DNA from: Arctopsyche grandis
Taxonomy: Eukaryota; Arthropoda; Insecta; Trichoptera; Hydropsychidae
Assembly: GCF_051622035.1 (NCBI RefSeq)
Contig: NC_135355.1
Span: 39,041,986 to 39,105,985, forward strand
Direction of reading: 5' to 3'
DNA: 64,000 nucleotides
Shown here: in pieces, positions 8,539-44,052 of the stretch
Layout: every line of letters starts with the position of its first letter
How positions within the stretch are numbered: position 1 is the first letter of the stretch
Made by a program: the position numbers and the translations under genes
The notes under the pieces: generated by a model
What the model saw: the letters and a program-made list of their open reading frames with translations, nothing else
The model's database searches: none
Told to the model about the DNA's origin: nothing

Positions 8539-11500
8539 ATTTGTATTATGCTTATATGTCTGGTCACAGTGACGCGTTAGAACATTCTGTAATATCACTG
8601 TGGCTAATATGTAAATAAATAAATATTCAAGGTCTGGCCAGCAGCATACGGAATATAACCCGTGACCACACAATTGAAAGCATTACATGCTAACCATTGA
8701 TCTATGCTACTGGTTATCCTAAAAAAAATTGTACGAATTAGCAGTGACATGAAGATACGCCTCTCACAACCGGAGTCCCACGTACACGTCGGTTCTTACC
8801 ATTATTCGTCCTTTCAGATCCTTCTAGATAAGACAAAACTTATTTTACAATGAACCTATGTACATAAGTACCATTTGTACTCAAATTCACTGGCGATATT
8901 GTTCAATGCGAGCTAGATATGAGTAGAGGTAGGACCGGAAGCGTGCTGTTCTTTGTTTATTGTTCGTTGTGCATTGTTCATGTTTATGATGAACCTTTGT
9001 TAAAGGTTCGCCGAACCTTTTTTATTGCACTCTAGCTTTGTGAATAGACCCAAAACGCCGTGTTTCCTGGAAAAAGCACGCTCTCTATCCGCCCTTTAGA
9101 TATGAGTAGAGGTAGGATAGTCACAGTGCTATCCATTGTTCGGCAAACCTTTAACAATGCATTTACAACCTTTGAACAATACACGGCCCCCTCAGGCTCC
9201 GGTGACTAGATATGAGCTATTGAAGCTTAACCACTTCATCGCCATAAGCGCAACGGTGCGCGCTCCTTCGTATTTAAGGCTATGACTCGAAATTAATTTT
9301 GGTTTCTTCACATGTAAAAATATCCTGTGATACTAATGAAATTGCAAAACGTCAATATTTTTTGTTAGTTTTTAATACATTAAAGAAGTAGATGTCATGG
9401 GTTGGCACTAAAAACATATAATAAAATAATCGAATCGGTTTCTACAAACGCGTGGCAATTGTAGAAACCGATTTCTACAGAAAATTTCAAGCAAGCACTT
9501 CAGTAGGTATCTCCAGAACTTGCACGTAAGCACGATTGTCTTCTTCTTCGACAACTTCTGGGTTTGTCGCTGTTAGGTTTTATTTTTCGGCGCTATTATG
9601 CTATCTGCCTGTTGGGCAATTAAAAACGCATTTCAACCAGACTCGCCATTGCTGTTTACGCATTTCTAGTCAAATTTAGCAACGCATTCATTTGTAAATT
9701 GTGAGGTGAGTGGCGGTAATGTCGCAAGGCGAGCAAGGCGCCACTCTAGCATTTAGTCGGCAACCGTTGTTGTTGTTGGTTGTTGTTGTTGTTTTTGTTG
9801 ATAATATTGTCACAACGTGTGTTCCTGGTCTGTTGGCTCCTCATGGCGATGATCGTCTCCTATCCGAAGATAGTCGCCTTCGATAGACTATCACGTTCTG
9901 TAACTATGCCCTTTATTATACACTACATATGTACTTTAAACATAGTAAGTTTGTAGCTTGGAGCGAAAGTCGTGCATTCGTCACCCAATCACGACCTTTA
10001 CAAAGCTATTAATCGCTTTTGTTGAGCTAAACTTCTGTGAACTAGTTAAACAACAATACCCAGCCAACTCAAGGACATCTACATATATGTATATAACACC
10101 AAACATTCATTCATTCATTGGAACAACCTTTAATTCGCTTCACAATTATTTCTATTGATCAGCTGAATACTGTGCCACTGGTTAGCTGGGAACTTGTTCA
10201 AATACTAGACGGACTTCAAACTCTTATGTACATATGTAGTGTTCAAACTTAATATTCTTTGATGATAAAAGCCTCTCCAATACAAATCTTCCCTATTCTG
10301 GACCACACCAAACTACTCTTTTCTGCAGACCCACCTCGCTTTCTTATTATCTTGGGTACCATTTGATAAAATTGCTATTTTTACAAGGCTTTTATATGTT
10401 CCACTTTGCTAGTAGTTCAGGCATTATTCCTAGTAGAAATATTGCCTGAACCATTGAATATACGTCAAAAATAAGACGTATGTATATCCAGTTATATTAT
10501 TGATGTATTGTCATAGAAGCTTATTAATTTGTGAAGCAATATTTCAACTAAATTACCTATATAATAAATCGTTTGCGAAGTAAACATAAGAAGAGGCATT
10601 GTAAAATATTTTCAACTTCGCATATACGTTATATATTTAGTATATGCGAAGGATCGTGGATCAGCTGCACTGATTATGCACATGTAAACATTTTATACCT
10701 GAAAGGCAGAGTGGTCTGCTTACACCCCCGATTCAATAATGTTACTTTTTGAACCAAAAAGGCACGTTTTTAAACGCCGAATACGAATTTTAATTATTTT
10801 GTATATGTATAATATTATGTAGTCCTCTAGGGTGGTGACCATTGACCTTGTGCCACCACCGTGGATCCGCCAGTGATTCCTACATTCTTCCCATCGGTTT
10901 GAAACTTTGCTATTTTGCCCGGTTTTAAAATAATCGTAATCGTTTAAGAATGCAAAAATTTTGGAGACGGTGACGTATAGTGGCAAGTAGGCCTTATATA
11001 TTTGACTTTCCGCCACCCACTCGTTTTTGTCAGATTTTAATTGTTTCAAACTATATCTTATAAAAATTTTATGTAATTAACATTCTGACAATTCAATTTG
11101 TAATTTGTCTTTAATGTGTCTTTAGGCCCAAATCCTCTAGTAAGATCTCAGATAGCACAACCGCTGTAGCTTATACATATTTTCTGATGTATCCAGAACA
11201 CTCCTCAACAACTGGTTCTACGCCCGCTTTAAAGATCAAGGAATTCGACCCTTAAAGCCCTCAACATGAGGCCGCCCCCCCCCCCCCCCTCCAACGAATA
11301 CAGTCTAAGAGACCATTTCGTCGGAGAACGAGACGGTTGTTCATGAATATCGCACAAGAACAGCCGCACATCACTGTTCTAATAAAAAAAACCACACTGT
11401 ACATAACCAAGTACAAAATAAACAACAACGCATGAACACGTAAAGCGCGCATGCGTTAGGAAATAATACCTGAAATGTGCCGTGCGAATGCACGCACACC

Positions 11501-14500
11501 TCAAGTAAACATGTGTTTATAAAAATGTGTTCCTCGCAACAGGCCGCAAAAAAAATTAGAGTCGAAAAAATTATATTCCTTAAAAAATAAGAAACGAGAC
11601 AATGTACTTTTTAAAATAAAAAAATTAGATTGTCTTGTTGTATACTTGTGGATTGCTTTTGTAAGTTACAACTTGTAACACACCCGAACTATAATTCAAG
11701 GAAATAAGGGGATAGCAGGTATAGCTTCGTTCCGCATAAAGCTAGATCTTTTATGTTCTATTATCTTTGCGACTTACGGATGTTGAGTATTGGTTGGTCA
11801 TCGAAAGAACAATGTCCTAGAGGTAGAATTGGGGGGTAAAAACACTATATTTTTATGAATAAACTTGAAAACGTTAAGTCTTTCTTGTCGTCTGGTCCCG
11901 TTCAGAACTAAACTTTTTGCTTTTCTGTCTGTTATTCTTGTTAATTTTATTGTGATTAAAATTTTCAACACTGTACCCCGAATTAATATGATTTAAAGAA
12001 ATGCTATGATAAAAATAAAGAGCGGCCAATTTAAGTTCGCACAAAGGTGGCCGAACTCCTAGGCCCTGATCTTAGCCTTCCAATTTATATAATTAAAAAC
12101 AGGCTGTTTAAGCCTGACTGTTTCTTAATATATGGATAGTTTTACATTTATTCCCGCTCTTTGTGGTTATATAAAAGAAATGTGTACTTTATAGTTGGTG
12201 TTGGAGGACTGTTCAATAACATTGAAACTTTAGATTTATTATACCTATATAATCATCAATGCATTACATTATTTAATCGTGAATTTATATTACGCTTTCA
12301 GAACTCGAGTGGAAGTGAACCTCGTTCTCGGAGTGCTACGCCGGACTCACTAGACTCATTACCGAGCGGCGGCTCAGGTAGTCCGCCGACGGAATGGGCA
12401 GACCCTCCACCCAATTTGATGATGTACGTCAAACTTTTTAACTATATCAATTCATTACGCATATATTAGATCAATATTAATCTAAATACATTTCTAGAAG
12501 CGATGGCTATCCAATATCGAAGCAATCTTTGTATCGGACGCCGTCTGCACCGCCCACAACCTTCACACACTTGCCTCCAAATCTTCACCATCGTGACATC
12601 GATGGAAGAGATGGACACTCACCACCGTCACATTTCACCCAAGTTCCAGTTCATGAACTATTCAAACCGTCCGAGCTACATTGGGCAGACGTTGCATCGA
12701 ATACAGGTAGTTGCATTAAAATTGCATTATATTACAATCATTTAAAACTTTTCAATTCTAAATTAAAATTTGCTTGCAGAGGGTATTGAACTTCTGGGCT
12801 ACCAAAGATTCGGAACGATTCAAGGACCCCGATTAGGTAGAGAAAGACTTCCGACAGCAATACTGATACCTGAGAATGAAGTATCCAAGTGAGAATTCGA
12901 TCAGCATGTTGTTAATTGCATTCTGATTCCAATTTTATAATATTGAAACTATTTTTACAGGCGTAAACAATCTCACTCTTCGGTGACACGAGCCCACAGC
13001 GTAGCTTCGGAGAGATTGGGTGATGACAAGACTAATCTCTCCCGTGCTTTATCTCATGAAGTGTTGAGCTTTGAGCAAAAGTTTAAGAAAGATACTGATC
13101 ATTTTATTATTGATGAGGTTTGTTTTGATTTTTTTTATCTACCTAACATTCATTCAGTGATGACTAAATTGTACTATAATAATGCGATTCTTTTAGATGT
13201 GGCCGGAAGAAGGTTTAGCTACAAACATAGAAGACTTGTCCGAAAATCACTTGAAGAAACTTGTTCCTCATTTGTGGTTGAATCTTACTACATTATACGA
13301 CCGACATAATTTACCATTCCAAAAAAGAAAACCTCACAAAAGGAAAAAGAAAGAAGGTGATTTTCAATTGATTTTTAACTAAATTACTGTACTTCAACGA
13401 TAATGTCGAACATTTCTAAAATAATCAAACAAGTGACAGACACTTATGACTTTTTTCACATACTAATAATGGCTCCAACCAAACCTGTAGCGATAAATAT
13501 GTATATATGTAGTTCATATCCAATACCAGGTCTGATCCTAAATGAAAAGATATTTCGCTTAGCAAGAAAAGCGACACACATACACTTATTAAAGGAAAAT
13601 AACTTTTAATCACGTTTCTACGGCTGTCTTCTTTTTACTATGATCAAAAACTAAAACTTTTCTGTTTTATAGTAGTTTAAAGATCAACATTCAGATCAGA
13701 TTAGATTGGTAAAGTTAATAAACCTGATCAAGGACGAAAACAGATGTTATTAGTCAGCAGTTTGGCTTAATGGTAGCGTATATATTTAGCACCACTGCGA
13801 TCGATGGATCGACTCGCCAAACTGCTGGTCAGGTTTGGGGATTTTGTGACTCCAAATCGATCGTTTCTCTATCATCTAATTGTTGAAACGATTCCTAAAA
13901 ATTGGTAATTGACCATTTCCTGTTGTCACAAAAATCTGTGTGTATAATTTGTAGAAATTATACACAGAAATCTGAAATCTATAGATGTTTCTATAATTTC
14001 GTGTTTATTATGTGTATAGGAATTGTAATAATAATTGTGCACAAAATCTAAAAATAATCCATAGATGTCTCTATGATTATTATTTCTGTACTTGATTAAT
14101 TATTGTATTCGATGTTTATTGAACGTACTGTATACGTTGTCTGACCATTCTCGTACACTCGTCACATTGGAGCGATCTGTAATGACGAGTGTACATTGAT
14201 TGTAATAAAAATAAAATAAAATATTGGACTTGAAACTTATTAGCTGAAGGCTTGAATCCAATTTAACGTACGTTTTCTAACCTGACGGCTTTAGAACAGG
14301 CCCTACTCTGACTATCAATCTCACAATTTTTGTATCATTTATCATTTTTTTAATCCAAATATTATATGTACATATATATTTCAGGCAATTTCAAAATTTA
14401 AATGATATTTACATATAATTTTGTTTTTCATTACAGAAAATAACGTTTTTGGAGTTTGTATTTTAACACTAATTCGAAAAGATCATTTGGTTGCTGGTGA

Positions 14501-15382
14501 AGCCGGTTCTGTTATTCCAAAAATTTTACGATTATTATTAGAAGCCCTTTCCAAAAAGGTGCACGAGGAAGGAATTCTCAGAATCACTGGAAATAAGCAT
14601 AAGGTTAGCTATTATTTTTCATATAATTTAAACAACCGACTATATTTTTACTGTTTACTTATACGATGAAAACTTTCAGATTGATAGTTTGTGTCAAGAA
14701 ATAGAGAGAAACTTTTACGCGGAGCCTGAAATAGTCGAAAGTGCAATCGCCGCAGCTGGATGCCATGAAATCACAGCCGCATTAAAGAAATTCCTACGTG
14801 AACTCCCTCAGCCGATCTTGACAACGGAATTGGTTCAATTATTCTACCAAACGCATGGTATTTTAACGTGCATATATGTAACTCATTTACTCAATATCAA
14901 ACGTAGTCAAAGAAATAATTTTTAATTGAAATTTATAGATCTTGACGGTCCAGCTCAAGGAAGAGCACTGAATCTACTCGTTCTGTTGATGGCATTCGAA
15001 CATCGAGCTACCCTCTTGGAATTGTTGCGATTGTTGAATAAAATATCTCAATTCCAAGCGTCCAACAAAATGTCTGAACACAACGTTGCTATGATTATTG
15101 CTCCTACACTTTTTCCTCCTAGGTATTTTGATTTATAATACCGTTTACTGTTATTTTTTTTCGATTATCACAATTTCAATATGAACTTTATATTGCAGTC
15201 TTGTCATCCGACCGGCTGACGGTTTGGAAGCTCAAGTTCAGATGGCCGCAAACAGTTGTCGGGTAACCGAAGCGTTGATGAGATATTGTGACAGCTTGTG
15301 GCTCGTTCCACCGTCGATTGCTTCCCAACTTGACAGAAAACCTCATCTCAAAAAAGCCAACGGACACGCATTAAACTCTTGA
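5501..15382 (+). CDS. conu: RhoGAP protein of the ARHGAP18/28 (conundrum) family, 5'-incomplete
   Basis: Rho-family GTPase-activating protein that should speed GTP hydrolysis by Rho; Drosophila Conundrum acts at the cell cortex. Ten exons join in frame: 5501-5727, 12302-12423, 12498-12706, 12780-12888, 12961-13117, 13197-13356, 14437-14603, 14680-14857, 14939-15122 and 15199-15382 (TGA). They give 565 residues counted from the split first codon. The N-terminal exon carries the family's EGEQEAEWL and PDIRDVF blocks. A serine/proline-rich linker follows, then the conserved HWADVASN and GIELLGYQRFGTIQGPRLG segment. The RhoGAP domain spans about residues 333-500. It has the arginine finger in GILRITG (R377), FLRELPQPIL, and the conserved asparagine in MSEHNVAMI (N492). 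Introns have GT-AG ends. The first intron (6.6 kb) is full of transposons. The start codon lies in an exon I did not find. Confidence 0.88.
5775..6415 (+). mobile_element. RTE-type non-LTR retrotransposon relic (C-terminal part of RT ORF)
   Basis: Broken reading frames in the first conu intron match the region after the reverse transcriptase in RTE elements. Visible pieces are PYGCETWSL (about 5790), a KMERCMLKITRRDRKR-like stretch (about 6078) and a KLKWKCASHVARRTDDRW-like stretch (about 6165-6220). About 200 bp of unrelated sequence separates the first piece from the others. Stops and frameshifts show it is dead. Confidence 0.7.
8185..8625 (+). mobile_element. tRNA-derived SINE, near full length
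   Basis: The head has a polymerase III B-box-like GGGTTCGATACC near 8250. Next comes the family body, TGTGACTCCAAGTCGATCG (near 8300) and AGAGTTTGCCAATTTATC (near 8330). The tail ends in a hairpin, CACAGTGA...TCACTGTG (8569-8606), and a TAAATAAATAAAT run. A (TA)n tract interrupts the copy. The same body occurs near 13840 and 21935. Confidence 0.7.
8474..8533. repeat. (TA)n microsatellite
   Basis: About 30 uninterrupted TA dinucleotides lie inside a SINE copy. Confidence 0.95.
8628..8712 (-). mobile_element. SINE head fragment, tRNA-like
   Basis: Read on the minus strand, it has an A-box-like CAATGGTTAGCATG and a B-box-like GGGTTATATTCC. Outer arms CCAGTAGCATA and TATGCTGCTGG resemble an acceptor stem with one mismatch. 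The following GGCCAGACCTTGAA matches the start of the SINE body at about 21920. Only the head remains. Confidence 0.6.
9225..9475 (+). repeat. Dispersed repeat, copy 1
   Basis: The sequence starting TTAACCACTTCATCGCC and running through the AAACCGATT motifs recurs in inverted orientation at about 21993-22145 in a Cdk10 intron. Shared blocks include the aatttcattagta and gattcgattattttattat segments. It is non-coding and probably a MITE-type element. Confidence 0.6.
11222..11375 (+). repeat. Dispersed repeat, copy 1 (second copy at 28120)
   Basis: About 150 bp are closely similar to 28120-28265. Shared blocks include CCCGCTTTAAAG, GACCCTTAAAGCCCTCAA, CGAATACAGTCTAAGAGACC and GGAGAACGAGACGGTTGTTC. 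This copy carries a run of about 16 C inside it. No coding potential is seen. Confidence 0.75.
13357..14436. other. conu intron 6 of the visible exons
   Basis: This 1.08-kb intron is mostly occupied by a SINE (13755-14222). The remaining sequence is AT-rich and shows nothing recognisable. Confidence 0.8.
13755..14222 (+). mobile_element. tRNA-derived SINE, full length, in a conu intron
   Basis: The head contains TTGGCTTAATGGTAGCG (A-box-like). It is bounded by the perfect inverted pair CAGCAGTTTGGC and GCCAAACTGCTG. The body carries TGTGACTCCAAATCGATCG. The tail ends in a perfect 12-bp stem, GTACACTCGTCA (14153-14164) and TGACGAGTGTAC (14183-14194), around the loop CATTGGAGCGATCTGTAA. It then closes with an A-rich AATAAAAATAAAATAAAA tail. 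Confidence 0.75.
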
Positions 15383-16630
15383 CCTTTCAACGAGCCAACA
15401 TTTTATACTCACATATAGAATATAAAAGTCATAAGATATTACAACCAATGTCACACTTAAAAATAATTATCCTAAAGCCATATACATATATCATAATATT
15501 TACCCATTTTAGTTAAGCTATTGTGTATTTATATATTTTTAATGTTTTTAAACCACTTTTTATTACATTATCTAGAAAATTAGTTTGAATTTCAAAGTGT
15601 ATAATAGATAGATATTAATTGTGTTGCTTTCACATTTATTTTATGTACATATTATTTAAGCTTCTACATTTCTTTTTTTACTATATGGCATTTTATAAGT
15701 TTTTATTATATTGATGAATCTGCTTTATTTTAGTGAATTATTTGCCAAAGACCTTATGTGACGTTGGTTTAAAGCCGACTACCTCTATTTATTTATAAGA
15801 TTGCTCTCTTCATAGACGTTATCTTACCGGGTGGCATCACATTCACCAAAACACGATTCCCTGGACTCTCTGCCATATTAAAATCAATCTGTGAACTATG
15901 CTTTGTATATACAATTAACTATTCTGTATATATTCAATATACAAAGTCCATATTACAGACTTTTTTTTTTGTTAAATATACACACATGCAATAACTTCTG
16001 GTTCTTAAATGCAGCGAGCTTCGAAGAGTCGAGTTTCGGTAAAATACAGTATCTTACGATATACTTATAAATATCTAAATTAAATGATAAAGAAAATCAA
16101 AAGAGAGTCAAAGTGATATAATAATATAATAAGTTAATTCAATGAAGTATTCATCACTTGCGTACCATTCTGCAGATAATTCAGTGCAATATCTGATTTT
16201 TTAATATTATTTCTCAAGATTATTATTTCATTATAGCGTATTTTACATACATAGTTTAATTTCTTGTGTCAGTGTGTATATCACAGGACTATATATAATT
16301 TATAAAAATGGGGTTACCTTAATTATGCATAAGAATCAACGATAGCACAACGATTTCAATTGTCGATAATATGTAGTTTGAATATGTATTTAAATATACC
16401 AATACTCTCTGTATTTCGTTATATATGAAATTTTCGTTGTTGCATTTACATACCTTTATGGCATTTTTTAATGTTTATCGATTATGTGATAGTAAGAAAC
16501 GATGTCAGTAGTTCTTAATTAACGAACAAAACTTTTTACTGCTTGGAGACTTGTACAAAAGAAGACTGATTGAATATAATGATATAATTATTCCATTGTA
16601 CATGTTGATGAGAATAAAAATTTGAATTCA
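15383..16630 (+). other. Probable conu 3' UTR
   Basis: The AT-rich stretch after the conu stop codon contains no transposon I recognise. The first clear AATAAA signal is at about 16612, so the 3' UTR may be about 1.2 kb. A shorter UTR using a variant signal cannot be excluded. Confidence 0.45.
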
Positions 16631-18933: not shown

Positions 18934-18935
18934 TC

Positions 18936-21060: not shown

Positions 21061-24000
21061 ATGCATTACGACCAAATCCAGCGCGCTTGTTTTGTGTCGG
21101 CGTCTCCACCTAACCTGTCACTTGTCAACAATCGTAATTCGTCGATCCGATCAGTAATGTCAGTGGGCATGATGGAAGTCGGGGGCCGAGTCGAGTACGG
21201 GGGCTCCGAAATGGGGGGCGGAGCCGCAGGTCAAGATGGCGGCGGTGGGGGCGGAGGCGCTCTGCCCCCGGGCTCCGATTCAGACCCGCACGCCCCCTCG
21301 CCCCGCAAACCACTGCTAATTTCATTCCGCAACGGCAAAACCATCGAAATACCAGACAAAGACATCGTGAGCTATATACACTATAAACATAATTCGTACA
21401 TACATACATTTCATTGTTGTTTTTTTTTTTTTGCTTGTTACAGTTCGGTAAATGTAGGTTTGTCGGAGAATTCGAAAAGTTAAATCGCATCGGTGAGGGG
21501 ACCTATGGTATAGTTTGTAAGTTACCGTTGTTGCAATTTTATTAGCGTATTATATACTATCGCTTGTGTGTGTGGCTTACAGGTTTTTTTTTTATTTTGA
21601 TTTTGATTTTCAGACCGAGCCAAGGATAAAGTCAACGGTAATATTGTCGCGTTGAAAAAAGTGAGAATGGAAGTGGAAAAAGATGGACTGCCTTTGAGTG
21701 GATTGCGCGAGATACAAGTATTGTTATCTTGCCGGCATGAAAACATCGTACAGTTGAAGGAAGTATTAGTTGGAAAAAGTTTGGAAAGGTATATGTTATT
21801 GCTTTTATTTCTTGCTTTATAAGCTTGTGAATATTTCTAATAAGCTCAGGATCCAAATACTAGGTTACACATTGCAACAACGTGGTCACGGGTTCAAATC
21901 CCACTAGTTTCTGCTGACCAGACCTTGGATTTGTGACTCCAGGTCGATCGTTTTCTATCAGAGTTTACCAATTTATCAAATTATCTGACCATTAACCACT
22001 TAATCGCCAAGCGTTTTTTGAAACCGATTCGATTATTTTATTATTTGTGTTTAGTTGTCAACCTTTGACACTAAATACTCTCTTGAATATATCACAAACT
22101 AACGAAAAATATTGACTTTTTTCAATTTCATTAGTATAACAAGCCCTGTAGGCGGCACCTTTTTCGCTAATTTGGCAATCGAGTTTTCGACCTTAGATAC
22201 AGATTTTAATATTTACTCAAGTAACCAGATATGTTAATTAACACATAAAGTATTATTTTAAACAATAAAATACATAATATATCTCATAGTTTTGGCTTAA
22301 TTGTCTAATAATCATTCTTCATACAATTGAGACGTATCCTCGCCATTGTTCAACAGACGTGACGTCACATAAAATAGGTTTCAGTATGGTTCCACAAAAA
22401 ACTAATTTTGACTGGTATATATGAATTTTAAGCAAATTGAATAGATGGCATTCAACCTTCAGTAATATATTCAACCAATTTTGAACCTTAAAACAGTTGA
22501 AATAGGCGCATATAAGGCTCAAAATCCCGTGCATAGTTCAGAAATTCTATGGAAGACAGCCGCGCTACAGACTTGTCGCGCAAAGCTTCCATAGAAGACA
22601 GCCGCGGGCAAACGGTTAAAAATAACTACATAAAACAAACTCCCGAGCTTTTTACCTACCAGTACTCCATAAAGAATTCTCATTGTAAATTTCTCCATCT
22701 AGCTTGAGAAACTCTTTTGAGCAAATTATAAAATAAAAAGATATCATCTTTTGATGGTTGTACCTCCTGCCCGCACAATCTTTATCGGATGGCTCCTATT
22801 CCAAAAGATTTCCGTTTTTTTAATGAAATCGTTGCTGCCGTGCCTGAATGTGATATTCTCCACCTCAGTAAATGTAGATTACCAGAGATTATTTTAACCT
22901 ATTTGTCCGGTAGCCTGCACTCATCATTATTTTCATGTGATGTATGATTGAATTTTGATCTTCTCTCTTCCTTTCGAGCCTCACAGGGTCTGTTTTGTAT
23001 TCACAGCTGGTCCTTCCTGTATTCACTCATTTTAATTTTATTACAGCATATTTCTATCAATGGAGTATTGCGAACAAGACTTGGCATCCTTGTTAGACAA
23101 CATGGCGTCTCCGTTTACAGAATCACAAATCAAATGTTTGATGTTGCAAGTTTTAAAAGGTCTGAAGTATTTACATGCCAACTACATAGTCCACAGAGAT
23201 TTAAAAGTTTCAAATTTATTATTAACCGATAAAGGCTGCGTTAAAATAGGTATAATAATACTATCACATACGTATATGTATACAATGTTTAGAAAATACT
23301 GATTTTTTTTTTACTTTATAGCTGATTTTGGTCTTGCAAGATGGCTTGGTCTCCCGCCTCGGGGTATGACTCCACGAGTCGTGACTCTGTGGTACCGAGC
23401 ACCGGAATTACTGCTCCAAGCTCCGTTACAGACTCCCGCTTTGGATATGTGGGCGGCTGGATGCATACTGGGAGAATTACTTGCTCACAAACCGTTGCTG
23501 CCGGGTCGTACTGAAATCGCTCAGCTGGAATTGATCGTCGATCTGTTGGGTTTGTGATCTCTGAACCTAACCATTGAAAATATTCATTAGATCTGCTTAT
23601 TTTATATATTTTTAATTATGTCAGGTACTCCGTCCGATGCGATATGGCCCGAGTTCAGCTCCCTGCCCGCTCTGCAAAACTTCACCCTCAAACAACAGCC
23701 GTATAATAATTTGAAACAGAAATTCCCATGGCTGTCGGCTGCAGGATTGAGACTGCTCAATTTCCTCTTCATGTACGATCCAAACAAGAGAGCGACGGCC
23801 GAAGAATGTCTTCAGAGTTCCTATTTTAAAGAAGCTCCACTTCGTAAGTTGTCGTTCAGCGTTCGTTGATAATGTTGATGTATTGAAGTTTGCCATGTTT
23901 ATGTCTATGTTTTTTAATTTAGCCTGTGATCCTAAGTTGATGCCGAGTTTTCCACAACATCGCAACATGAAAGGGCAATCGAAAAATAATGGCTCCGGAC

Positions 24001-26900: not shown

Positions 26901-26956
26901 AACGCACCACAATCGTCTTCACAGGTTACCCCAATATTATATATTAATAATTTTGG

Positions 26957-27470
26957 ACCATTGTGGCATTACAGGAAGAACCTAATGCGCCACAATGGCC
27001 TACATTTAACAAAGATATAAATACAAGTAAAATGAGTAAAAAATTAAAAAGCTGAAAACATGGTAAAATAAAATAATAATAAAAAAGTAACAAAAGGAAA
27101 ATAATAATACAATTAAAATAGTACATAAAAATATACAAATTAGAACGGAAAAGTAAAATAAATCAAACAAAATATGAATAAAAAATAAAATCACAGCGAG
27201 GCCCAAACGGAAGAGAGTAGATTAAGATTCCACTCATACATCACATTCTAATTAAGAAAGTAATGATGAGTGCAGGTTACCAGATAAATATGTTAAAATA
27301 ATATCCTCAACGAGGTGGAAAATATCGCATTCGATGTGTATTATACACGAAATGGTGCGTATCCGTCCAGCCGAGGATTTTGCCATTGACACTGGCAAAA
27401 TCACCTTCCAATGACTACGTATATTGATTGGTCTACGGAATATTTTGTTTGAGTCTTCTATATACATTTA
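26957..27470 (-). mobile_element. LINE 3' end with terminal hairpin (copy A)
   Basis: Read on the minus strand, the C-terminus of an ORF (ending LTYLSGNLHSSLLS, 27252-27467) is followed by an AT-rich 3' UTR. The copy ends in the hairpin CCATTGTG...CACAATGG (about 26957-26998) with loop core GCGCATTAGG and CCTGTAATGC. The hairpin defines the 3' end, and AT-rich sequence follows. Similar coding and UTR sequence occurs at 22800-22995. Confidence 0.55.
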
Positions 27471-28265: not shown

Positions 28266-29672
28266 ACATAGCTATATGGCGAATTTGCACATACTTAGCT
28301 ATATGGCGGTGTATGTCTCGCCAAATCACATGACGTAATGCGTGGCGGCCCGGATCCTGATGAAGATGTGGTTGACTGTAGTCGAAAGGTCGGTGAATCT
28401 CTATATTTTTCCAGTGACTGCTTCAGGATATTTAGCTGGTAACTAGCCAAACTGGTCTTTTTTACATTAACATTCATATATATACTATGGGCGTTCAGTA
28501 AGTATAAGTCGAATATATGAAATACGACTTTTTAGTACCATTTAACTGTTATCCTCGAGCAATTTAAGCTTGAGAGCATCATGTCAGTCTTGTCAACAGC
28601 CCCCCCATGTTTTTGTTGTAGTCCACCACACAGTTTGGTTTCAGTGTGGCTTCCCCTGTCTGTCTGTTTGTTTTGCCAGTCGGCACAAATTGTCAAAATG
28701 TCGTCATGAATGGTAGTGAGCATGTGTACGTCCCGTTTGGGCATTCGTTTTCTAATATTACGTACGATACTGCATGCGTTTGTAATATTTTTGTTTGGTT
28801 TTATGCATTTTGTCTATGCAAGTGGATAAATCAGTTGGGGCTGGTTTACCAATTGTCTACCCAAAGACTATATATGACCTTTACCAATGTAGTCCTTGGG
28901 TAAAGTAGTAACAATCACTCCCGACATACCTAGCCCGTGTTCGTCAGTTATTTCTGTTCTGTCTCCACAGTATATGATGATTTTACATCGCATAAAACGA
29001 ACGTCTTTATTCCGAGTCGATGTCGTTTCATTGGAAGGAATTGTTTAAAAGCTAGACGTCCTTTGAAAACAACAATGCTTTCGTCGATACATAGGTTTTT
29101 TTTTATAGGGGTTCTCAGTCTGCTTGAAAATTTGACACGTGTGGTCAATTAGGAGTTTCGTTTTTTATAATTTATCCCCAGAATTTTGAGTTACATTATC
29201 AGAGAAATGTAACATACTGAGCAGTATTGTGGGAATTCGATTATTGTGGTAACTACATAACAGTACCTATGACAGGCTTACGGGTCTAATTGTAAGGGGA
29301 ATTTCAGGAATGAGTGGATTAGGCCATATCTTTCTACTCGATTCGGTTATCTTCTTTTGGATATCCGAATCACTGATCAGACACGGAATGTGTCTTCAAC
29401 TAATGATGGACGACAGTACGACGTCAATCAGATATCGCTTTGGTTCTAACCACAAATTTCGTGAAATTACCTGGTTCATCTCAGCGTTGTGCGTCCAAGA
29501 ATAGGACTCCACCAAATACATTTGCACTTTATTAATAGATATTTCTTCTATATGTCGATTGTACGGTCGGCCTGTCACGTAAATTTTGTCATTGATGAAC
29601 CACTGTGAAACAACAGCCGTCGATAATGGAGCCATGATCATCCATTTCTCAGTCTTGTTATTTAATCTATTT
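28266..29672. other. Intergenic region leading into the 67-bp array
   Basis: No convincing gene is seen. The last part (about 29440-29672) is homologous to 31360-31640, sharing ATACATTTGCACTTTATTAA, and appears to be the parent repeat within which the array expanded. Confidence 0.6.
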
Positions 29673-30700
29673 GAGATGAACAAGCGTTATCAATGGAGCC
29701 ATGATCTCCCAAATCTCAGTCTTGTTGTTCCATCTATTCGAGATGAACAAGCGTTGACAATGGAGCCATGATCTCCCAAATCTTGGTCTTGTTATTCCAT
29801 CTATTCGAGATGAACAAGCGTTATCAATGGAGCCATGATCTCCCAAATCTCAGTCTTGTTGTTCCGTCTATTCGAGATGAACAAGCGTTGACAATGGAGC
29901 CATGATCTCCCAAATCTTGGTCTTGTTATTCCATCTATTCGAGATGAACAAGCGTTATCAATGGAGCCATGATCTCTCAAATCTCAGTCTTGTTGTTCCG
30001 TCTATTCGAGATGAACAAGCGTTGACAATGGAGCCATGATCTCCCAAATCTTGGTCTTGTTATTACATCTATTCGAGATGAACAAGCGTTATCAATGGAG
30101 CCATGATCTCCCAAATCTTGGTCTTGTTATTCCATCTATTCGAGATGAACAAGCGTTATCAATGGAGCCATGATCTCTCAAATCTCAGTCTTGTTGTTCC
30201 GTCTATTCGAGATGAACAAGCGTTGACAATGGAGCCATGATCTCCCAAATCTTGGTCTTGTTATTACATCTATTCGAGATGAACAAGCGTTATCAATGGA
30301 GCCATGATCTCCCAAATCTCAGTCTTGTTGTTCCGTCTATTCGAGATGAACAAGCGTTGACAATGGAGCCATGATCTCCCAAATCTTGGTCTTGTTATTC
30401 CATCTATTCGAGATGAACAAGCGTTATCAATGGAGCCATGATCTCTCAAATCTCAGTCTTGTTGTTCCGTCTATTCGAGATGAACAAGCGTTGACAATGG
30501 AGCCATGATCTCCCAAATCTTGGTCTTGTTATTACATCTATTCGAGATGAACAAGCGTTATCAATGGAGCCATGATCTCCCAAATCTCAGTCTTGTTGTT
30601 CCGTCTATTCGAGATGAACAAGCGTTGACAATGGAGCCATGATCTCCCAAATCTTGGTCTTGTTATTCCATCTATTCGAGATGAACAAGCGTTGACTCCT
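29673..30700. repeat. 67-bp minisatellite, about 15 copies, dimeric higher-order pattern
   Basis: Units starting GAGATGAACAAGCG recur exactly every 67 bp from 29673 to 30678. Two variants mostly alternate. One has GTTATCAATGG with CTCAGTCTTGTTGTTCCGTC, the other has GTTGACAATGG with CTTGGTCTTGTTATTCCATC. The array therefore grew largely as a 134-bp dimer. A single diverged unit occurs at 31540-31600. Confidence 0.95.
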
Positions 30701-31359
30701 CTTGCAGTCAATCTAATGATACGTTCGCAATTGTTCCACCTTTCCACTAAAGATAAAATAGTATTTTAGTATATCCATCACCACTAATGGTGATGTATTC
30801 GGTACTATTTTTACTTTAACAGCTGGAAATGATAACACTCTACACATTTTGGTATTTATATATGTACTACATTTGTAAGGGTATTACGAATTTTTCCGTC
30901 AACCATTGTTTTAATTAGTTCACGGTAAACAAAAACGTTACAGTTTTCAATGAGAACTTAGAGAACTATTAAAGTTTGATTCTATAATATGAACATTTGA
31001 ATAAAATTCATTAATCATTTTGGAATTAAATATACTTAAATTTTTTGAATTATTAATATAATCTTGAAGTGAAGTAAAATCCTTCCGTTAAAGATCTGAT
31101 GTTAATGCAACTCCTCCTATTTTATATTACCATTGGTGACTCCAATGGCGTTGCGGGGTTGTCAGTAATATCTGTATGTAGAATACAGACTTCAGCACTT
31201 ACGTTGCTGGGATGTGGGACGAGATTCTTTGGTGCTATCTAAAAAGCGAAGAGATTCGACATATTATAAGTGAATTTTCGTTTTTTAGGAGCTGCACCTC
31301 TACTCCTTGTCGTGTCAAGCCTCTTTACTTTAATATAATAACCTCTTAAATTCCTCTGC

Positions 31360-32660: not shown

Positions 32661-32789
32661 TGCAAATCCGGAATTGAAAATATTACTATTACCTTGATTC
32701 CGCGAGGCCCTTACTATTCTTGCCACATTATTTAATGGCAAGTAAGTGTTTATGTAAGGGAGGCTGAGACGATTCAACACTTGAGTTGG

Positions 32790-35711: not shown

Positions 35712-35800
35712 AATTAATTGAGAATGATCTATTGCATTGTATAAGATAATATCTTGTTCGATGACATCGAAGTTGTACTTAGCTATGATAATTTAACTTT

Positions 35801-36893
35801 GACAATGATAATTTAACTTTATATAGCTCAAGGTTCGGTTATTGAATACCGTTCGCTGCAGCTGTCGTAGAGAGATGATGTTTCTTTAGGACAAATCCTC
35901 GTCCAAACACGGCGGACAATGATAATTTAACTTTATATAGCTCAAGGTTCGGTTATTTGAATACCGTTCGCTGCAGCTGTCGTGGAGAGATGATGTTTCG
36001 TTAGGACAAATCCTCGTCCAAACACGGCGGACAATGATAATTCAACTTTATATAGCTCAAGGTTCGGTTATTGAATACCGTTCGCTGCAGCTCTCGTAGA
36101 GAGATGATGTTTCGTTAGGACAAATCCTCGTCCAAACACGGCGGACAATGATAATTTAACTTTATATAGCTCAAGGTTCGGTTATTGAATACCGTTCGCT
36201 GCAGCTCTCGTAGAGAGATGGTGTTTCGTTAGGACAAATCCTCGTCCAAACACGGCGGACAATGATAATTCAACTTTATATAGCTCAAGGTTCGGTTATT
36301 GAATACCGTTCGCTGCAGCTCTCTTAGAGAGATGATGTTTCGTTAGGACAAATCCTCGTCCAAACACGGCGGACAATGATAATTCAACTTTATATAGCTC
36401 AAGGTTCGGTTATTGAATACCGTTCGCTGCAGCTCTCGTAGAGAGATGATGTTTCGTTAGGACAAATCCTCGTCCAAACACGGCGGACAATGATAATTTA
36501 ACTTTATATAGCTCAAGGTTCGGTTATTGAATACCGTTCGCTGCAGCTCTCGTAGAGAGATGGTGTTTCGTTAGGACAAATCCTCGTCCAAACACGGCGG
36601 ACAATGATAATTCAACTTTATATAGCTCAAGGTTCGGTTATTGAATACCGTTCGCTGCAGCTCTCGTAGAGAGATGATGTTTCGTTAGGACAAATCCTCG
36701 TCCAAACACGGCGGACAATGATAATTTAACTTTATATAGCTCAAGGTTCGGTTATTGAATACCGTTCGCTGCAGCTCTCGTAGAGAGATGGTGTTTCGTT
36801 AGGACAAATCCTCGTCCAAACACGGCGGACAATGATAATTCAACTTTATATAGCTCAAGGTTCGGTTATTGAATACCGTTCGCTGCAGCTGTC
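35801..36893. repeat. 114-bp minisatellite, nine full copies plus a partial
   Basis: Units starting GACAATGATAATT begin at 35801, 35915, 36030, 36144, 36258, 36372, 36486, 36600, 36714 and 36828. One unit is 115 bp. Each holds TATATAGCTCAAGGTTCGG, GAATACCGTTCGCTGCAGCT and CGTCCAAACACGGCG. Linked variants (ATTTAAC with ATGGTG, ATTCAAC with ATGATG) alternate in later copies, a sign of recent dimer-wise growth. Confidence 0.95.
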
Positions 36894-37191
36894 GTAGCTA
36901 TTCTCGGCTTTAAATTAGCATCCCTGGATTTTTCGCATCATCAGAACTTTTCCAATTTCAGCATTATATAGCCCAAGGGGCGAAGAACAGCCTGCTCCAC
37001 GGGAGTCCTTTATTAGACTATCCGCTAGCTTGAGGTCAATCAGCTGAGTGTGAGTGTCAGGCGTCCGCGAGGAGTCATCTTCCACTCGCGCAACCAAGAT
37101 TATTTCGGAGGTGGCCTCAAGAATGCCAACGATCTAAGATTTGGAGAACATTTCCTCCAGATAGATCACGTCACACCGGTTGTAAATTGAT

Positions 37192-37282
37192 TTAACCGCT
37201 TAGCTGCCCAAAGCGCCTTAAGGAGCAAACAGCCGTATCTATTATACGCTCAGCGCGTCGGCTGGGCGTCTAAGCGGTTAAA
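37192..37282. mobile_element. Short palindromic MITE
   Basis: The 20-bp arms TTTAACCGCTTAGCTGCCCA and TGGGCGTCTAAGCGGTTAAA differ at two positions and enclose about 51 bp. The ends resemble those of the repeats at 9225 and 21993 (TTAACCRCTT). No clear target duplication is seen. Confidence 0.55.
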
Positions 37283-37559
37283 GCACGACATTACAATACG
37301 TATACAGAAAAATACGTCAATACTGTCCAAGCAACCGAGGGAGACCATTTTGATACCTCCAAATAACTTGTCATTGTTCTTTAATGGCTTTGGCCTTGAA
37401 TTGATCATGCACAGCATTTCATATTGTATTATACATAAATTAATCAAGCCTACTCGTCTAACAGATTGTTCCAAAGCAACAAGTGTGCTACACCGATTAA
37501 GAATGGTAAAAAGTACATGAAAATACAAGTAAAAATACATAAATGGAAGAAAAGAAATA

Positions 37560-37625
37560 GAGAAAAATAAATTAACATGACATTAAAAATTCTTAGTGAT
37601 CGACTCAACCGTTCTAATTGGTCGC
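37560..37625 (-). mobile_element. LINE 3'-end fragment
   Basis: The block CTAATTGGTCGCGACTTCCG corresponds to CTAAATGGTCGCGACTTCCG in the 3' region of the minus-strand LINE at about 48411. Only the end of the element appears to remain. Confidence 0.45.
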
Positions 37626-38855
37626 GACTTCCGTAACTTAGAAAGTGGTGCAGAAAATGGAACCGTTGATGTCGTCGGCAAGCTTGTGGTAATAGGGAAG
37701 ATTTTCCTGTCCCAGTATTATCTATAATGAATAGCAGTAATCGATTCTTACTGCTTTAAATTTGATCTAAAGATATTATGAGTATTAAATTTAAACTCAT
37801 CCTTTTGTCACTGTATTTTGTGACGTCTGGAACTGGTTATCATCCATGTGTTGTTCTGGTATGACGTCTTCCTGTTCAAAAGCATGGATTTGAATGAACG
37901 CATTTTCCAGCTGTTTGTTTCGCATTGTGTACAGTCCATGTGTGCACTAGAATCCTGTAAACTTCCATATAAACTGGTATATCATCATCATAACTATTTG
38001 CTTGATGACATCTCCTAGTAGCCATTATCACCCATAGGATGAGCTAATATATCATCCACCGTAAATAATATTCATATTCTTAAAAACTTGCTAAAAGTTG
38101 AACAGCCGATTCCAATGAAGAATCGGGCTTATAAACAAATGCAGTAGAAGATGTACGATCTGTAACAAGACCGACAAAGTCAATATTGATTCCAGTAAGA
38201 TGATCCTGAGTCAAAAGAGTTGTATAGTATTCCAAGTGCAGTGTATTTCCACTTGCAAATACTTTTACCTTTGGAGACATGAGTAAATGTTGAAAAGTCG
38301 CGCATGTTAACAATGACTAAAGACATCATTAGAGTTAAATACATTATATCCATAAGTGAAAAAAAAGATAGTATGGCGAAGAGATAAATGAATATTTTCT
38401 TTTAACTTCGCGTCTCTGAATTATATTCGTATTCAGTATGTTAGTAGACTACCCGAAGACGAAGTCTGAATACAACGTTAAGACTTGTGTTTAGATCCAT
38501 TGTCTTTTTCAAAACATCATCGTTAAACTCTTGGAGACAACCTGTCCCTGGAAAGATGAATTTACCACCAAAATAAGACCACCCGTACACCCCATTCACA
38601 AATTGAATCCTACAATTATTTCCAGTTAGGTATGCTCACAATTACTGGTACAGCCAAAATACTTTTCGCCGTGTCTGATCGATTAAAATTAAATAAGTAA
38701 GTAACCTTTTACATTCCACTTAAATAGTTTGACCTTACGAATTTTATTTTATACAGTTAGAAAATTCCATTCGCACTTTGTTAACACATTTGAACTACCA
38801 CCATAATATATAACATATAAAAACTTTGCAATTTATATAATTTGTTTGTTTTTTA
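37626..38855. other. Intergenic region
   Basis: A 77-codon minus-strand frame at 38080-38313 is the longest open stretch. I recognise no family in it and no splice context. The remainder is AT-rich. Confidence 0.5.
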
Positions 38856-38859
38856 CATT

Positions 38860-39120
38860 AAGTTTCACTTACGATTACAATTCAGGAAAAAGTTTGCCTC
38901 TTATCCGATCGTTTTCATACTTATTGCCATATTGTTCATTTTGGTCATCAATATAAGTAAATGGATCCTTCGCTATTACGATGGTGCAAAAATATCGTGT
39001 AACACGCGTTTGATATCTGCCCAGCGAAATAGTCGTTGACGTTTGTCCATCGTTTGTTTATTAGTTTTGAACATAGATGGCGGTAGTAAAATAAAATTAT
39101 TGTTTTTATTCAAAATAATA
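38860..39120 (-). mobile_element. MITE with CATACCTC-type ends, copy 2 of 3
   Basis: This is the reverse complement of the 17436 and 59771 elements. It shares TTTCACTTACGATTACAATT, CTCTTATCCGATCG, the CATCGTAATAGCG block and ACATAGATGGCGGTAG. The terminal CATACCTC is eroded. Confidence 0.7.
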
Positions 39121-39329
39121 ATTTTATTTCCGATTTTGATAAACTGGCATACATATTAAGTTTTGGGGCAAAGAAAGGACGTGACTTAATAAATAAAAAA
39201 TGTCTAAATTAGACATTTTTTTTTCGACTAATATTCAAGTTTTTTGTTCCCAATTAACATCTCAAACTGCAGATAGGTCTCAATACATATTGTTTTTATA
39301 TACATTTTCAGTCTCTTTTTTTTTTTTTA

Positions 39330-39700
39330 TTGTTTGTAACCAATCTGGATTAGACATTGCGGGCTAAGAATTTTGAAACCTTGGAAATTTGTGCACCCCC
39401 GTGCAACTTTAAGGCCGCGGACGTTGGTGTTACTTAACTAATTGCCAACGGGTCGTTGATCAGCCGCCGAATGCAGCCGCCGGGGAGTGCTGAAGACCTT
39501 CAGATGTGAACCACTAATCTCCCATTCATTGTCACTTTCATACCGAGGACGGGTTGGCTGTAATCTCCCGGGCCCGGTGTTTCAGGCGGGAGCTTCAGTG
39601 GTCCATCTCAGTGACGCATTACTTCCCGCAATGTTAATCTTGACGGTTATGACAGTGAAGGGTAAATTTGATCGATAGCAAGTGGCTCGTTGATATAAAA
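39330..39700. other. GC-richer dispersed-element-like segment
   Basis: The composition differs from the AT-rich surroundings (blocks such as GCAGCCGCCGGGGAGTGC and CTCCCGGGCCCGG). No coding frame beyond about 60 codons and no second copy in the window were seen. It may be part of a retroelement. Confidence 0.3.
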
Positions 39701-40276
39701 TCTATAATGTCATAATATGTATTGAAATCGTTACTGGTTGATTGTTCTTTGCAGTGCTTCAAAAGACGTTTGCATAAAATTGGGTATAGAATAAAGTAAA
39801 AATCAATATAAATGTAATATGTGCGTCCTGACTTTTAGCCTTTTTGTTGAATGAACAGTCTCAAAATATGTGTCAAACTCTGAGAAATGGCAAACTTAGT
39901 TATAATAATCGAGTGATTGAATTATGTGATACTATAATTTGGACTTAATTTTGGAAAGTTTTCAGTGTAAATGTATGAATTTACAGTTTCGTTGGTTCTG
40001 AAAATACAATACAATATAAGACATATTCAAGAACTTATTTTCTAACTGTATACGATATATATTTTTGATGCTTATTTATTTTTTATCTATAAATGACACA
40101 GGATTTACAGGGCTCTAATTTTTAAGAATTTATAAATTGTGTTTATGCACGAAATTCATATGCCCCGTTTTCCTATTATGTGTGTGTTGAATCAAACAGA
40201 GTATTTTTTGAAAATAGATTCAAGAGGAATATAAACAAAGTTATTATTTTTTTTTTTTTTTTTTTTTTTTTACATA

Positions 40277-40800
40277 CCAGGAAGGCATTACAGGTAAACC
40301 CCAATGCGCCTTCCTGGCCAAATTACAAACAATACATTATCTCCCGGTGCGTCATGCGCACAATCTCGGGAAATGCGGCGAGGGAGGGTGTGAAAGTCAC
40401 ATTAATATTCGCCTCTTTGACTACTTGGTTCCTTTGGAACGCAGAAGTCTCGAGAGCGGTGGGCTTTTCCACTATCTCATCTCGTGTGGGGGGTGGCCCC
40501 CGTTGCGCCATTCCTCCTTTTGGGATGGTTTTGGGAAGTGGCGGTTTCGACTGCCTACTACCAGATGACTGGGTTTGCGCGTCAGGTCTAGAAGACTGTA
40601 TAGCGCGAGGGTTTCTACGGTTTTCGGGTCTACCTTTGTAGACTCCTTGTTGCCTTTCGGGTTGTGTTGTATATCCGTTGTCAGCCATTGGTGCGTTGTA
40701 AGCGGTTTGTCGAGTTGGTGTTGGTGTGTTGGTTGGTTTTGGTGTTACGTGGTACGTAAGTCGTGATGACTTGTGGTTGTCCAGTAAACAAGTTCCGAAC
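40277..40800 (-). mobile_element. LINE-derived element with open frame and terminal hairpin (copy B)
   Basis: On the minus strand a start codon at 40688 opens a 121-codon frame (MADNGYTTQPERQQGVYKGR and onward). It is polar and rich in Pro, Gln and Arg. The stop is followed within about 10 bp by the terminal hairpin CCAGGAAG...CTTCCTGG (40277-40317), then a run of over 20 A. An ORF1-like start fused almost directly to a 3' tail suggests an internally deleted LINE derivative. Confidence 0.45.
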
Positions 40801-40828
40801 CTCGGACCTCATAAAATGGGATATACAT

Positions 40829-40880
40829 ACAAGTTTCTCTTATCATATATGCATATACATATATGATAAGAGAAACTTGT
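40829..40880. repeat. Perfect 52-bp palindrome
   Basis: Arms of 23 nt (start ACAAGTTTCTCTTATC) pair perfectly around the 6-nt loop CATATA. It lies just beyond the 5' side of the LINE-derived element. Confidence 0.95.
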
Positions 40881-41300
40881 TGCAAAAAAAGTCACCCTTG
40901 CGGTGGTAGCAAGTTCTCTCATCACAGGAGGCCTAATTCCCCGGTCTGTTACCAGTAATCTTGAGGTACCTGAATGGAAAAATTTGCTGGAAAACTACAA
41001 TTTTTCTCGATAACAATCTCTACTATTTCCTTTTTTGGGTTTTTAATTTTGTTCAATGTATTTTGGACTATTGGTCCGTACCGACGAGTATCGTCATTGC
41101 TCGTCCTTGGCAATATTACTTCCTCCGATTGCAATACCAGTAGTTATTATATCTTGAGGTAGCCGAATGAGAAAATCGTCTGTAAAACTACATCATTCTC
41201 ATAAATAACGCGAATGACCGCTTGCATTAAGCTTAGTTCACTTACAAACTTACAAAATGGTTACATAAAACTAAAACATACAAAATTTTATTCAAAAAGA

Positions 41301-42071
41301 TCAAGGCTGTCCGATGCTTGGCTTGAAGGCGACGGTGAGGAAGGAGCTAAAGCCATTAAGTCGATCCTCCTTCATTGTCGACCTCAGCCATGTCTTTGTA
41401 CGCAGCAATGTTGAAAAACTTCTTTCTACTGTAGCAATAGATACAGGTAGACAAGCAAATATTTTGTACAGCGTGTGCAAAGTAGGATAGTAAGATCTAG
41501 GACAAACAGACAAGGCTTGCATAACAGAATCACAGGATAATTAAGGGCGTTTATGTTTATGTGCTTATATTGAAGGATCTCTCCCATTAATCACTTTTTA
41601 ATCACAAAGGGTGATTCTCCTTCAAAGAACGATAGTTCAGTTAAGCACTGATTCAATTTATGTGCCAGATCATTACCGGCATGTTTTAGTAGTTGTGAGG
41701 GCAAAAGTATGTTGAATTTTAAATGATAAATATTTTCTTCAGCAAAACTTTCTCATGTCAGTCGTAACATGGTCCAGTGTTGGAATAAAAACAGTTCTTT
41801 GCCAATATGTCATAGCATCATCATTATGATCGCAGTTTTCCCTGTGTCTTTGTCTGCCTGTAAGACGAGGAACACTGATCTCCACGTCCAACTCTTCCAT
41901 AACTGCCTTCGCCTCTTCAACAATACGAGCAAAGTGGCTATCAGCATTAGCTCTCATGTCCTCATACACCTTGAGCGTCGAATCTATTTTTGATTTTGCC
42001 ATCGCGACGTCTATGCTAGGGTCTTGTAAGATTTTGCTGACTGGATATGTTATGCTCATAATGTCACTCAC
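41301..42071 (-). pseudogene. hAT transposase relic (52-kDa-repressor/ZMYM-like)
   Basis: The frame at 41301-41522 contains PTLHTLYKIFACLPVSIATV, ERSFSTLLRTKTWLRSTM and KEDRLNGF, the C-terminal dimerisation domain of this hAT group. The frame at 41739-42071 holds the preceding helical part, ending in DHVTTDMRKFC. The two are out of frame, with stops between. An inverted pair TGCTCTATAAGTTGC (42161) and GCAACTTATAGAGCA (42251) lies beyond it. Confidence 0.8.
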
Positions 42072-42726
42072 TGTAAACAGTGTGATAATAAACTCGCAAT
42101 TAGTGAGAGCTCGAATGAGAATATTGACTTTGGCAGCCGTTATTCTATCCTTTCCTGGCTTGCTCTATAAGTTGCGTGCCAGCGGCTGCCGTGTGTATGA
42201 GTGGGCTCGAGTGACTGATTTTACGTGTCTGTCTGACCGTGCGTGCGCATTGCAACTTATAGAGCATTAGATTGAATGGAGGGGGAAATAGGTCGTAACC
42301 AACACAAGTCCGTCCATATAATATAAAAGTTCAGCGGATTGCTACGTTGATTCATTCGAAACTTGACTATCCCAAGATGTGAACACTTCGCCACTAGTAT
42401 CATTTCGATCTGATCTGGAAACCCCTACTCACGCCCACGCAACAACATTCATACATGTTGATTAAGGGTATGATTAAATCACGACGTCGAATTATTTTGA
42501 GGTTGTTATTTTATATGTACGTATACAGTACACGAAGAATTGTACTGATTTGGAACATTTTATGTTATCGCCGAAGTATGGGCCGAAATTGCACTCCAAT
42601 ATAAATCTTTATCTTTGCGCGGGATTGCTTGAATTACAAGTACTCGATTTTCCGATCATTTTCGGACCCAGACTTTTTATTTCTTGAGAACGAAATCAAA
42701 GCCTTTCGTTATTAATCTTTTTTGTT

Positions 42727-43430
42727 TTCATCCTTAAAGAATTCATACAATATGGATCTCTACACGATTTAGCGCGGACCTTATGGGCTAACCTATAAAA
42801 CAAAGAAATACATATCTAAGTGAATTGCCGAAGAGTTCTTTAAACTTGACTTGTTCAATGAGTCTGATGGTATTAATCGACTATCGCATCAAAGGTGCGG
42901 CTTATATAATCGATTATTTTTATCGACTCAAAACAAGCTTCGATTGTATCATACAAAGTTATTTCAACTTCAAACAAGGTTGCTATTTAAAAAATCAATG
43001 GAGATGCATAAAAGTTTTAAATTTATATAGTATAATCGAAGTATACACATGTGTGTGTACATAGGTAGCTTCTAATTTAATTTTTTTTGGTTTCATCCTT
43101 AAAGAATAATTAATGCACCCACAATATGGATCTCTACACGATTTAGCGAGAACCTCACGGGCTAACCTATAAAACAAAGAAATACATATCAAAGTGAATT
43201 GCCGAAGAGTTCTTTATACCAGCGAAGAAGTACGTTTGGTTGTATTGGTCACTGTTTATTTTTGTTCTCGTTTCATCTCCGTTTCCACTTTTCCAGACTC
43301 TGGCTGTTGGCGGGGTCACAATTTATGTGGTTGGGAGATGGGATTGGGACCTATATAATCGATTTTTATCGACTCAAAACATTAAAACCACTATTGTCTT
43401 TCCCATCGATGGTGGTCCTTGATAGATCAA
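42727..43430. repeat. Two-copy tandem duplication of about 360 bp
   Basis: The blocks ATATGGATCTCTACACGATT, AAACAAAGAAATACATATC and GAATTGCCGAAGAGTTCTTT occur at about 42750-42840 and again at 43120-43215. Each is followed by a TATAATCGAT...TTTATCGACTCAAAAC block (about 42906 and 43354). It is non-coding. Confidence 0.75.
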
Positions 43431-44011
43431 GTTGTATCTCATTTTAGATGCTCCAATTGCGTGTTTTTAAGTTGTTGGATTTGAGGATCGCACCGGTCAT
43501 GGGTCATATTTCTACTGTTACAAGATTCTCTGATGAAAATCGTCTTTTCAGGGCTGTTTGGATCCATTCACTTGCTCCATTAGTGAGCGTGAATTCAATC
43601 CCTGAAGGACGACTCCTCGCAGGAATTCCTTCTGCTTGCGTCACCCTATCTCACAAAAAAAGGTGCACGAGTTCTGAAGTTCTGTTATTAATTCTGCTAC
43701 GAATTCTGTCGAGCGAGAGGGGGCTCGGCCAAGTTCGTATCCGTTTCTTGGTGTGATATTTTCACCAGTTTCGCATCTACTAATAATGCCTCCATAACGG
43801 CTGTAAGTAATCACAGCTACCTCGAAATAATAAGAAGCTATTTTCATTGTTTTAATTGCCAACGTCAAATAATATGATCTTGGGATTCAACATAAGCCAC
43901 AAATAGTTTTGGTTTTATCAAAACATCTTCGAATCCACAAATCATCTTCATCCACCTTACTGGTAAACTGCTCTATGTTATTTTATTTTATTTTTTTTTA
44001 TTTAATTTACA

Positions 44012-44052
44012 CCAAGAAGGCCTAACAGGTAAACCCAATGCACCTTCCTGGC
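44012..44052 (-). mobile_element. LINE 3' terminal hairpin (copy C)
   Basis: On the minus strand CCAGGAAGG and CCTTCTTGG flank a loop containing TGCATTGGG and CCTGTTAG, followed by an A-rich tail. The stem is of the copy B type with one pair lost. A simple-repeat stretch lies on its 5' side. Confidence 0.55.

Follow-up and report, generated by a model that had tools for sequence, protein, structure and literature searches.

Variable yet paired stems in the 3' hairpins of LINEs and SINEs of Arctopsyche grandis

Stringent-type tails of L2-clade long interspersed nuclear elements (LINEs; UnaL2, ZfL2-1 and ZfL2-2) and of the accompanying short interspersed nuclear elements (SINEs) contain a 3' hairpin that is required by the LINE. 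As described in sections of PMC4176376, ZfL2-1 and ZfL2-2 tolerate an exchange of the stem but neither an exchange of the loop nor a disruption of the stem, i.e. the loop holds the identity and the stem is exchangeable as long as it pairs. Plant L1-clade LINEs and monocot SINEs likewise have a common end of about 50 nt with conserved loop letters and a variable, compensated stem (excerpts of PMC3747384, Ohshima 2013). Here we describe a comparable hairpin in the trichopteran Arctopsyche grandis, based on a window of 64,000 nt (the whole stretch analysed, NC_135355.1, 39,041,986 to 39,105,985, forward strand; positions below are those of the window) and on searches of the genome (475.7 Mb, 189 contigs). 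Very probably we are dealing with the 3' recognition hairpins of related LINEs encoding an endonuclease and a reverse transcriptase (RT), exploited by tRNA-type SINEs; the tail would be of the stringent type with the core as the part being read. It is clearly a further example of an already known type of tail recognition and not a new mechanism, because the principle is already in print. No earlier description of this particular hairpin was found among the listed titles and abstract beginnings of the open-licence literature.

Compared to the L2-clade tails as presented in those sections, the conserved part in A. grandis mainly comprises the internal loop and an inner stem, the outer stem is longer, and the hairpin is known from sequence alone. 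The plant system, as far as excerpted, differs by its host and probably by its LINE clade, whereas three LINE and several SINE families coexist in the one genome studied here. SINEs of Lepidoptera are similar in combining a tRNA head and a conserved central domain with differing tails (PMC8010984, PMC3272025, each in part). This likeness concerns the architecture, and neither of the two main texts contains the word stem-loop or hairpin.

A sequence-only reading of the window had named five tails, two of SINEs and three of LINEs, with self-paired but unrelated stems around a common loop. All five hairpins are present at those positions, each pairing with its own 3' arm. They belong to SINE S1 (8561-8606, +; stem GGTCACAGTGACG, core CGTTAGAACATTCTGTAAT, tail matching LINE-B), SINE S2 (14151-14196, +; stem CGTACACTCGTCA of the LINE-C type, internal loop CATT/TAAT), LINE-A (26955-27001, -; stem GGCCATTGTGGCG), a 5'-truncated copy of SINE F3 (40274-40320, -; stem GGCCAGGAAGGCG) and a diverged, also 5'-truncated F3 copy (44009-44054, -; 3' loop strand TTAG). 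In folding, each beats 200/200 of its own dinucleotide shuffles (z -3.3 to -5.9). From the base upwards the hairpin is made up of outer stem (9-13 bp in the LINE families A, B and C), internal loop, inner stem of 4 bp and apical loop of 4-5 nt, and an A/T-rich tail comes after it. The internal loop is usually CAT on the 5' side and TAA on the 3' side, and the inner stem pairs T-R-G-R with Y-C-T-G. When the window is scanned with a covariance model built from 42 hairpins, these five are recovered (E 1.7e-15 to 1.3e-5), a recovery that is not independent because four of them are model-building sequences or near-identical to such; apart from them, only the reverse strand of one hairpin matches at E < 1 (E 0.009). 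A decayed 3' hairpin of LINE-C, absent from the sequence-only reading, is located at 37440-37496 (-). It folds no better than its shuffles (z -0.38; 62/200 as good) and is without a covariance-model match up to E 5. The hairpin near 37464 was also considered as part of a SINE, which was rejected since the upstream sequence is LINE-C coding, namely the end of its second open reading frame (ORF2; 37603-37671, -; 70% over 23 aa, E about 5e-5).

The pairing of the stem is retained across copies in which its sequence changes. Within 42 distinct hairpins 92.2% of the cells are paired compared to 73.0% after shuffling, and the covariation score amounts to 0.606 compared to 0.254 (0.216 in the best slid register). 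For 21 LINE and SINE representatives the respective values are 95.2% and 70.4% paired cells and scores of 0.728 and 0.235, whereby 10 of the 12 outer pairs are altered on both sides somewhere. The percentage of paired cells, the number of double-change cells and the covariation score were reached by none of 500 shuffles. By these measures the stem positions covary. Pairing and covariation together support that LINEs and SINEs have in common a 3' hairpin whose core is conserved and whose stem varies but remains paired.

The loops do not behave as chance matches. In the window the loop pattern was found 3 times with 0.09 expected, and genome-wide CATTRG-N3-8-CTGTAAT occurs 6,986 times (3,527 + 3,459) compared to 103 (56 + 47) for the reversed control. 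CGTTRG-N3-8-CTGTAAT has 882 genome matches and its control 102; the fixed patterns of S2/LINE-C and of F3 occur at 1,006 and 1,309 places, respectively, with 0 in either control. The common loop CTGTAAT holds for four of the five tails, while the tail at 44012 has CTGTTAG. Loop constancy in copies from the first searches is partly built in, because the patterns fixed most loop letters. Copies found without loop filter have CATT, CTTT or CGTT as 5' strand and TAAT, TAAG, TTA, TTAG, TCAA or TTAA as 3' strand. The core is therefore less constant than the five copies imply, although it varies less than the stem within the 21 representatives.

Element bodies were assigned by sequence comparison. 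Among the five tails only the one at 26957 is a LINE tail. It belongs to LINE-A and is preceded by a 3' fragment of this element (27002-27332, -) with the 3' untranslated region and the last ORF2 codons (27332-27270, 76% over 25 aa). LINE-A contains a frame of 370 codons that overlaps another of 989 codons, and an intact copy, L171, encodes a 989-aa ORF2 protein with endonuclease (PF03372) and RT (PF00078). In a set of 14,398 candidates, the 121 with the best scores include 84 of identical score (701.9 bits) and 19 in which the 989-codon frame is open (hand count), hence LINE-A was recently active; it is the most recently active LINE documented here. In two hairpins with LINE-A-type stem (L147:425-470, -; L148:1787-1832, +) the 5' loop strand is CTTT and the 3' strand TTAT or CTAT, the two strands of the internal loop having changed together, and a further LINE-A-type hairpin (L126:1212-1263, +) carries an additional GTGGC repeat in its 5' arm.

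LINE-B (stem GGCCACAGYGACG) has an ORF2 35-48% identical to that of LINE-A. At six of seven loci with the CGTTGGAG-type LINE-B hairpin ORF2 coding was found upstream (exception L176), and the relative L182 also matches. LINE-C (stem AGCACACTCGTC) was discovered via one fragment, and 20 copies were chosen by their protein, blind to the tail. Sixteen of these end in a hairpin of the GCACACTCGTC type in which 11 or 12 of the 12 pairs are intact, two have it with a damaged arm (L190, L205) and two are without the hairpin (L197, L200). A region of contig C2 (30.8-34.4 Mb) holds 16 of 150 scored LINE-C matches with near-equal scores (hand count), as if locally duplicated; L197 is the one fetched copy from this cluster. 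All these LINEs may resemble the L2 clade / CR1 group.

The SINEs consist of a tRNA-like head and a central domain common to S1, S2 and F3. The S1 body (8195-8560, +) has a box-B-like GGTTCGATACC at 8254-8264 and the central domain from about 8299; the S2 body (13744-14150, +) contains a diverged central domain, and box B of the S2b consensus is GGTTCGAGTCC. ARAGORN reports no tRNA gene in the window. Since the three families have one central domain in common, one SINE lineage acquired or evolved several tails. The S1 tail corresponds to the LINE-B tail, including the post-stem bases GGCTAATATGT (alignment scores: LINE-B 46.5, LINE-A 20.5, LINE-C 8.5). The S2 stem is that of LINE-C apart from a single pair in which both partners differ (T-A instead of C-G), with scores of 25.5 for LINE-C, 16.0 for LINE-B and 6.5 for LINE-A.

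The tails at 40277 and 44012 had been taken for LINE tails. Both are instead 3' ends of SINE F3: out of 21 copies sharing the F3 stem, 17 contain the central domain of the SINEs in their upstream sequence, and LINE coding is found in none. In the 17 copies the domain lies at the expected distance (in L139 and one of the L155 copies only through short matches); in L146 it is found only far upstream, and three copies are without it, namely both of those in the window and one whose upstream sequence extends over only 239 bases. Same-strand LINE coding is absent from the 239-1,500 bases examined upstream of all 21. The window copies are linked to the SINE copies L131/L133 by a 3' match that includes the hairpin (40277: 94% over 86-92 bases; 44012: 87-88% over 73-78 bases). 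Among older F3 copies with TTAG, 7/9 have the central domain and 0/9 LINE coding within about 500 bases. The L158 hairpin was dropped as a candidate LINE tail; its adjoining sequence resembles SINE bodies.

The stems had appeared unrelated because they were compared out of register. If the 5' arms are aligned on the loop, LINE-A agrees with LINE-B at 10 of 13 positions and with F3 and S1 at 9 each, while LINE-B agrees with S1 at 12 and with S5 at 11. Shuffled arms reach the agreement of LINE-A and LINE-B in 0.02% of trials and that of LINE-A and F3 in about 0.1%; leaving out the last two, fixed letters, they do so in 0.07% and 0.8%. Judged by this alignment the stems of LINE-A, LINE-B, S1 and S5 are homologous and diverged by compensated changes. 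The F3 stem is probably, though not certainly, homologous to them, because its arm is weaker against LINE-B (8 positions, 2.9% of shuffles) and S1 (7, 6.5%), and the test covered 13 arm pairs. Only the GTACACTCGTC type of LINE-C and S2 is unlike the others: the two arms share 11-12 positions with each other and 4-5/13 with the others, which is chance level. A process rewriting both arms together, as had been suggested, is thus dispensable for most stems, F3 probably included, where compensated substitutions suffice; for the LINE-C/S2 stem the idea retains a place. There, template switching or tail capture may have swapped the entire stem in the LINE-C lineage en bloc rather than by stepwise compensation. 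The three LINEs are about equidistant in the ORF2 C-terminus (about 160 residues; A-B 48%, A-C 46%, B-C 42% identity), yet only the LINE-C stem is unlike the others, its arm agreeing with LINE-A at 4-5/13 positions compared to 10/13 for LINE-A and LINE-B. However, LINE-C still keeps columns 11, 13 and 14 as well as its loop frame in register, saturation through compensated changes would give the same appearance, and it is a single case, so that we consider such a swap unlikely.

Between families and subfamilies the outer stem differs with its pairing retained, while internal loop and inner stem vary less. By analogy to ZfL2-1 and ZfL2-2 and to the plant L1/SINE hairpin, where the same logic holds according to the sources cited above, the LINE protein would bind the internal loop and the inner stem, and the outer stem may be needed merely as a paired scaffold. 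We propose that outer stems could therefore drift through compensatory changes and that a SINE RNA of whatever kind might be reverse transcribed by the LINE machinery provided that its core fits. The earlier idea of an enzyme that reads the loop while a stem of any sequence suffices is consistent with our data and with the zebrafish swaps, and we infer it here on these grounds.

Several observations weigh against this picture. The number of pairs with double changes does not exceed that of the shuffles (172/500 reach it for the 42 hairpins, 67/500 for the 21 representatives), nor does the number of pair types in the 21 representatives (337/500). Moreover the shuffles take no account of relatedness, and the independent stem types number only about five. 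An alternative pairing of the core, CATT with AATG, performs about as well (92.9% of cells paired, score 0.561); it was set aside since the F3 variants TTAG/TCAA break it, but neither form is proven. CTTT, TTA, TTAG, TCAA and TTAA in copies found without loop filter show variation of the core itself. The tail of S2b only slightly prefers LINE-C (20.5) to LINE-B (16.0), F3 fits best to LINE-A (21.5), and F3c has no good fit to any LINE. A LINE with the F3 stem was not found among 30 F3-type copies, whereby the search for LINEs was not exhaustive. Finally, a stem change in UnaL2 strongly lowered activity, as cited in the available part of PMC4176376, hence stems may matter beyond pairing.

How SINEs and LINEs are matched within this system may be explained in two ways, neither of which we hold to be probable. 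SINEs might switch their LINE partner by few internal-loop substitutions while keeping the stem of the former partner, so that the stems of S2 and F3 would originate from older partners and S2 and the youngest F3 subfamily would have reached the loop of LINE-A (CATT/TAAT), the loop alone setting the partner. The main difference between S2 and its stem donor LINE-C is indeed the internal loop: the first 100 of the 1,006 places comprise 33 LINE-C-type stems, 29 of them with CTTT/TTA and all with TTA, and 67 S2-type stems, of which 63 have TAA and 45 CATT/TAA. Older S2-type copies carry CTTT/TAAA (n=8, mean pairwise identity 74.9%, 15 scored pairs) and younger ones CATT/TAAT (n=5, 84.2%, 6 pairs), with the central domain present in 4/8 and 4/5 copies, respectively. 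The F3 series leads from TTAG (about 70-84% alike) via TAAG to TAAT (97.7-99.3% alike, 3 copies), and LINE-A, as the most recently active LINE, has CATT/TAAT; in the first 100 of the 1,309 F3 places TAAT occurs 57, TAAG 34 and TTAG 9 times, all with CATT (hand count). Yet a young F3c pair (97% alike) has TTAA, the TAAG F3b pair is also young (96%), S1 and LINE-B retain CGTT, and CATT/TAAT may be plainly ancestral. Furthermore the ages derive from few copies, and the compared CATT/TAAT copies were mostly picked using that loop as search pattern. Overall such retargeting seems a tentative idea.

Equally speculative is that each SINE is bound to the LINE with its own stem, the stem sequence being part of the recognition and the LINE of F3 being extinct or rare. 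The stem matches of S1 with LINE-B and of S2 with LINE-C fit to this. In contrast, none of the 30 F3-type copies is a LINE with the F3 stem although F3 copies 97.7-99.3% alike indicate recent activity, and foreign stems function in the two zebrafish LINEs (PMC4176376, same sections). Irrespective of the mode of matching, at least three LINE and several SINE families with thousands of copies in one genome provide natural stem/core combinations of one hairpin, i.e. a substitution series for asking which nucleotides the LINE protein reads and whether SINEs track the active LINE by loop changes.

Further remnants of these LINEs in the window are a LINE-A-related ORF2 at 22724-22935 (+; 71% over 52 aa, 63% over 19 aa), a LINE-C ORF2 C-terminus at 48399-48599 (-; 77% over 73 aa) and a LINE-C ORF2 at 50648-50987 (-; 67% over 84 aa). 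Another LINE at 46000-47380 (+), presumably R1-like, was rejected as partner owing to its different 3' end, a poly(A) tail without hairpin; its open reading frame gives no Pfam match at E 0.001. Translated frames at 41700-42300 (-) resemble what we assume to be a hAT transposase remnant. Matches of a viral-contig pattern scan were regarded as chance and left unused, the pattern being too loose. Two tandem arrays are located at 29478-30782 (67-bp unit, 16 register copies) and 35728-36940 (114-bp unit, 9 register copies, 64-100% identical to the reference). At 53451-53792, inverted repeats 100 and 78 nt in length are nested, the inner arms being 1 nt apart.

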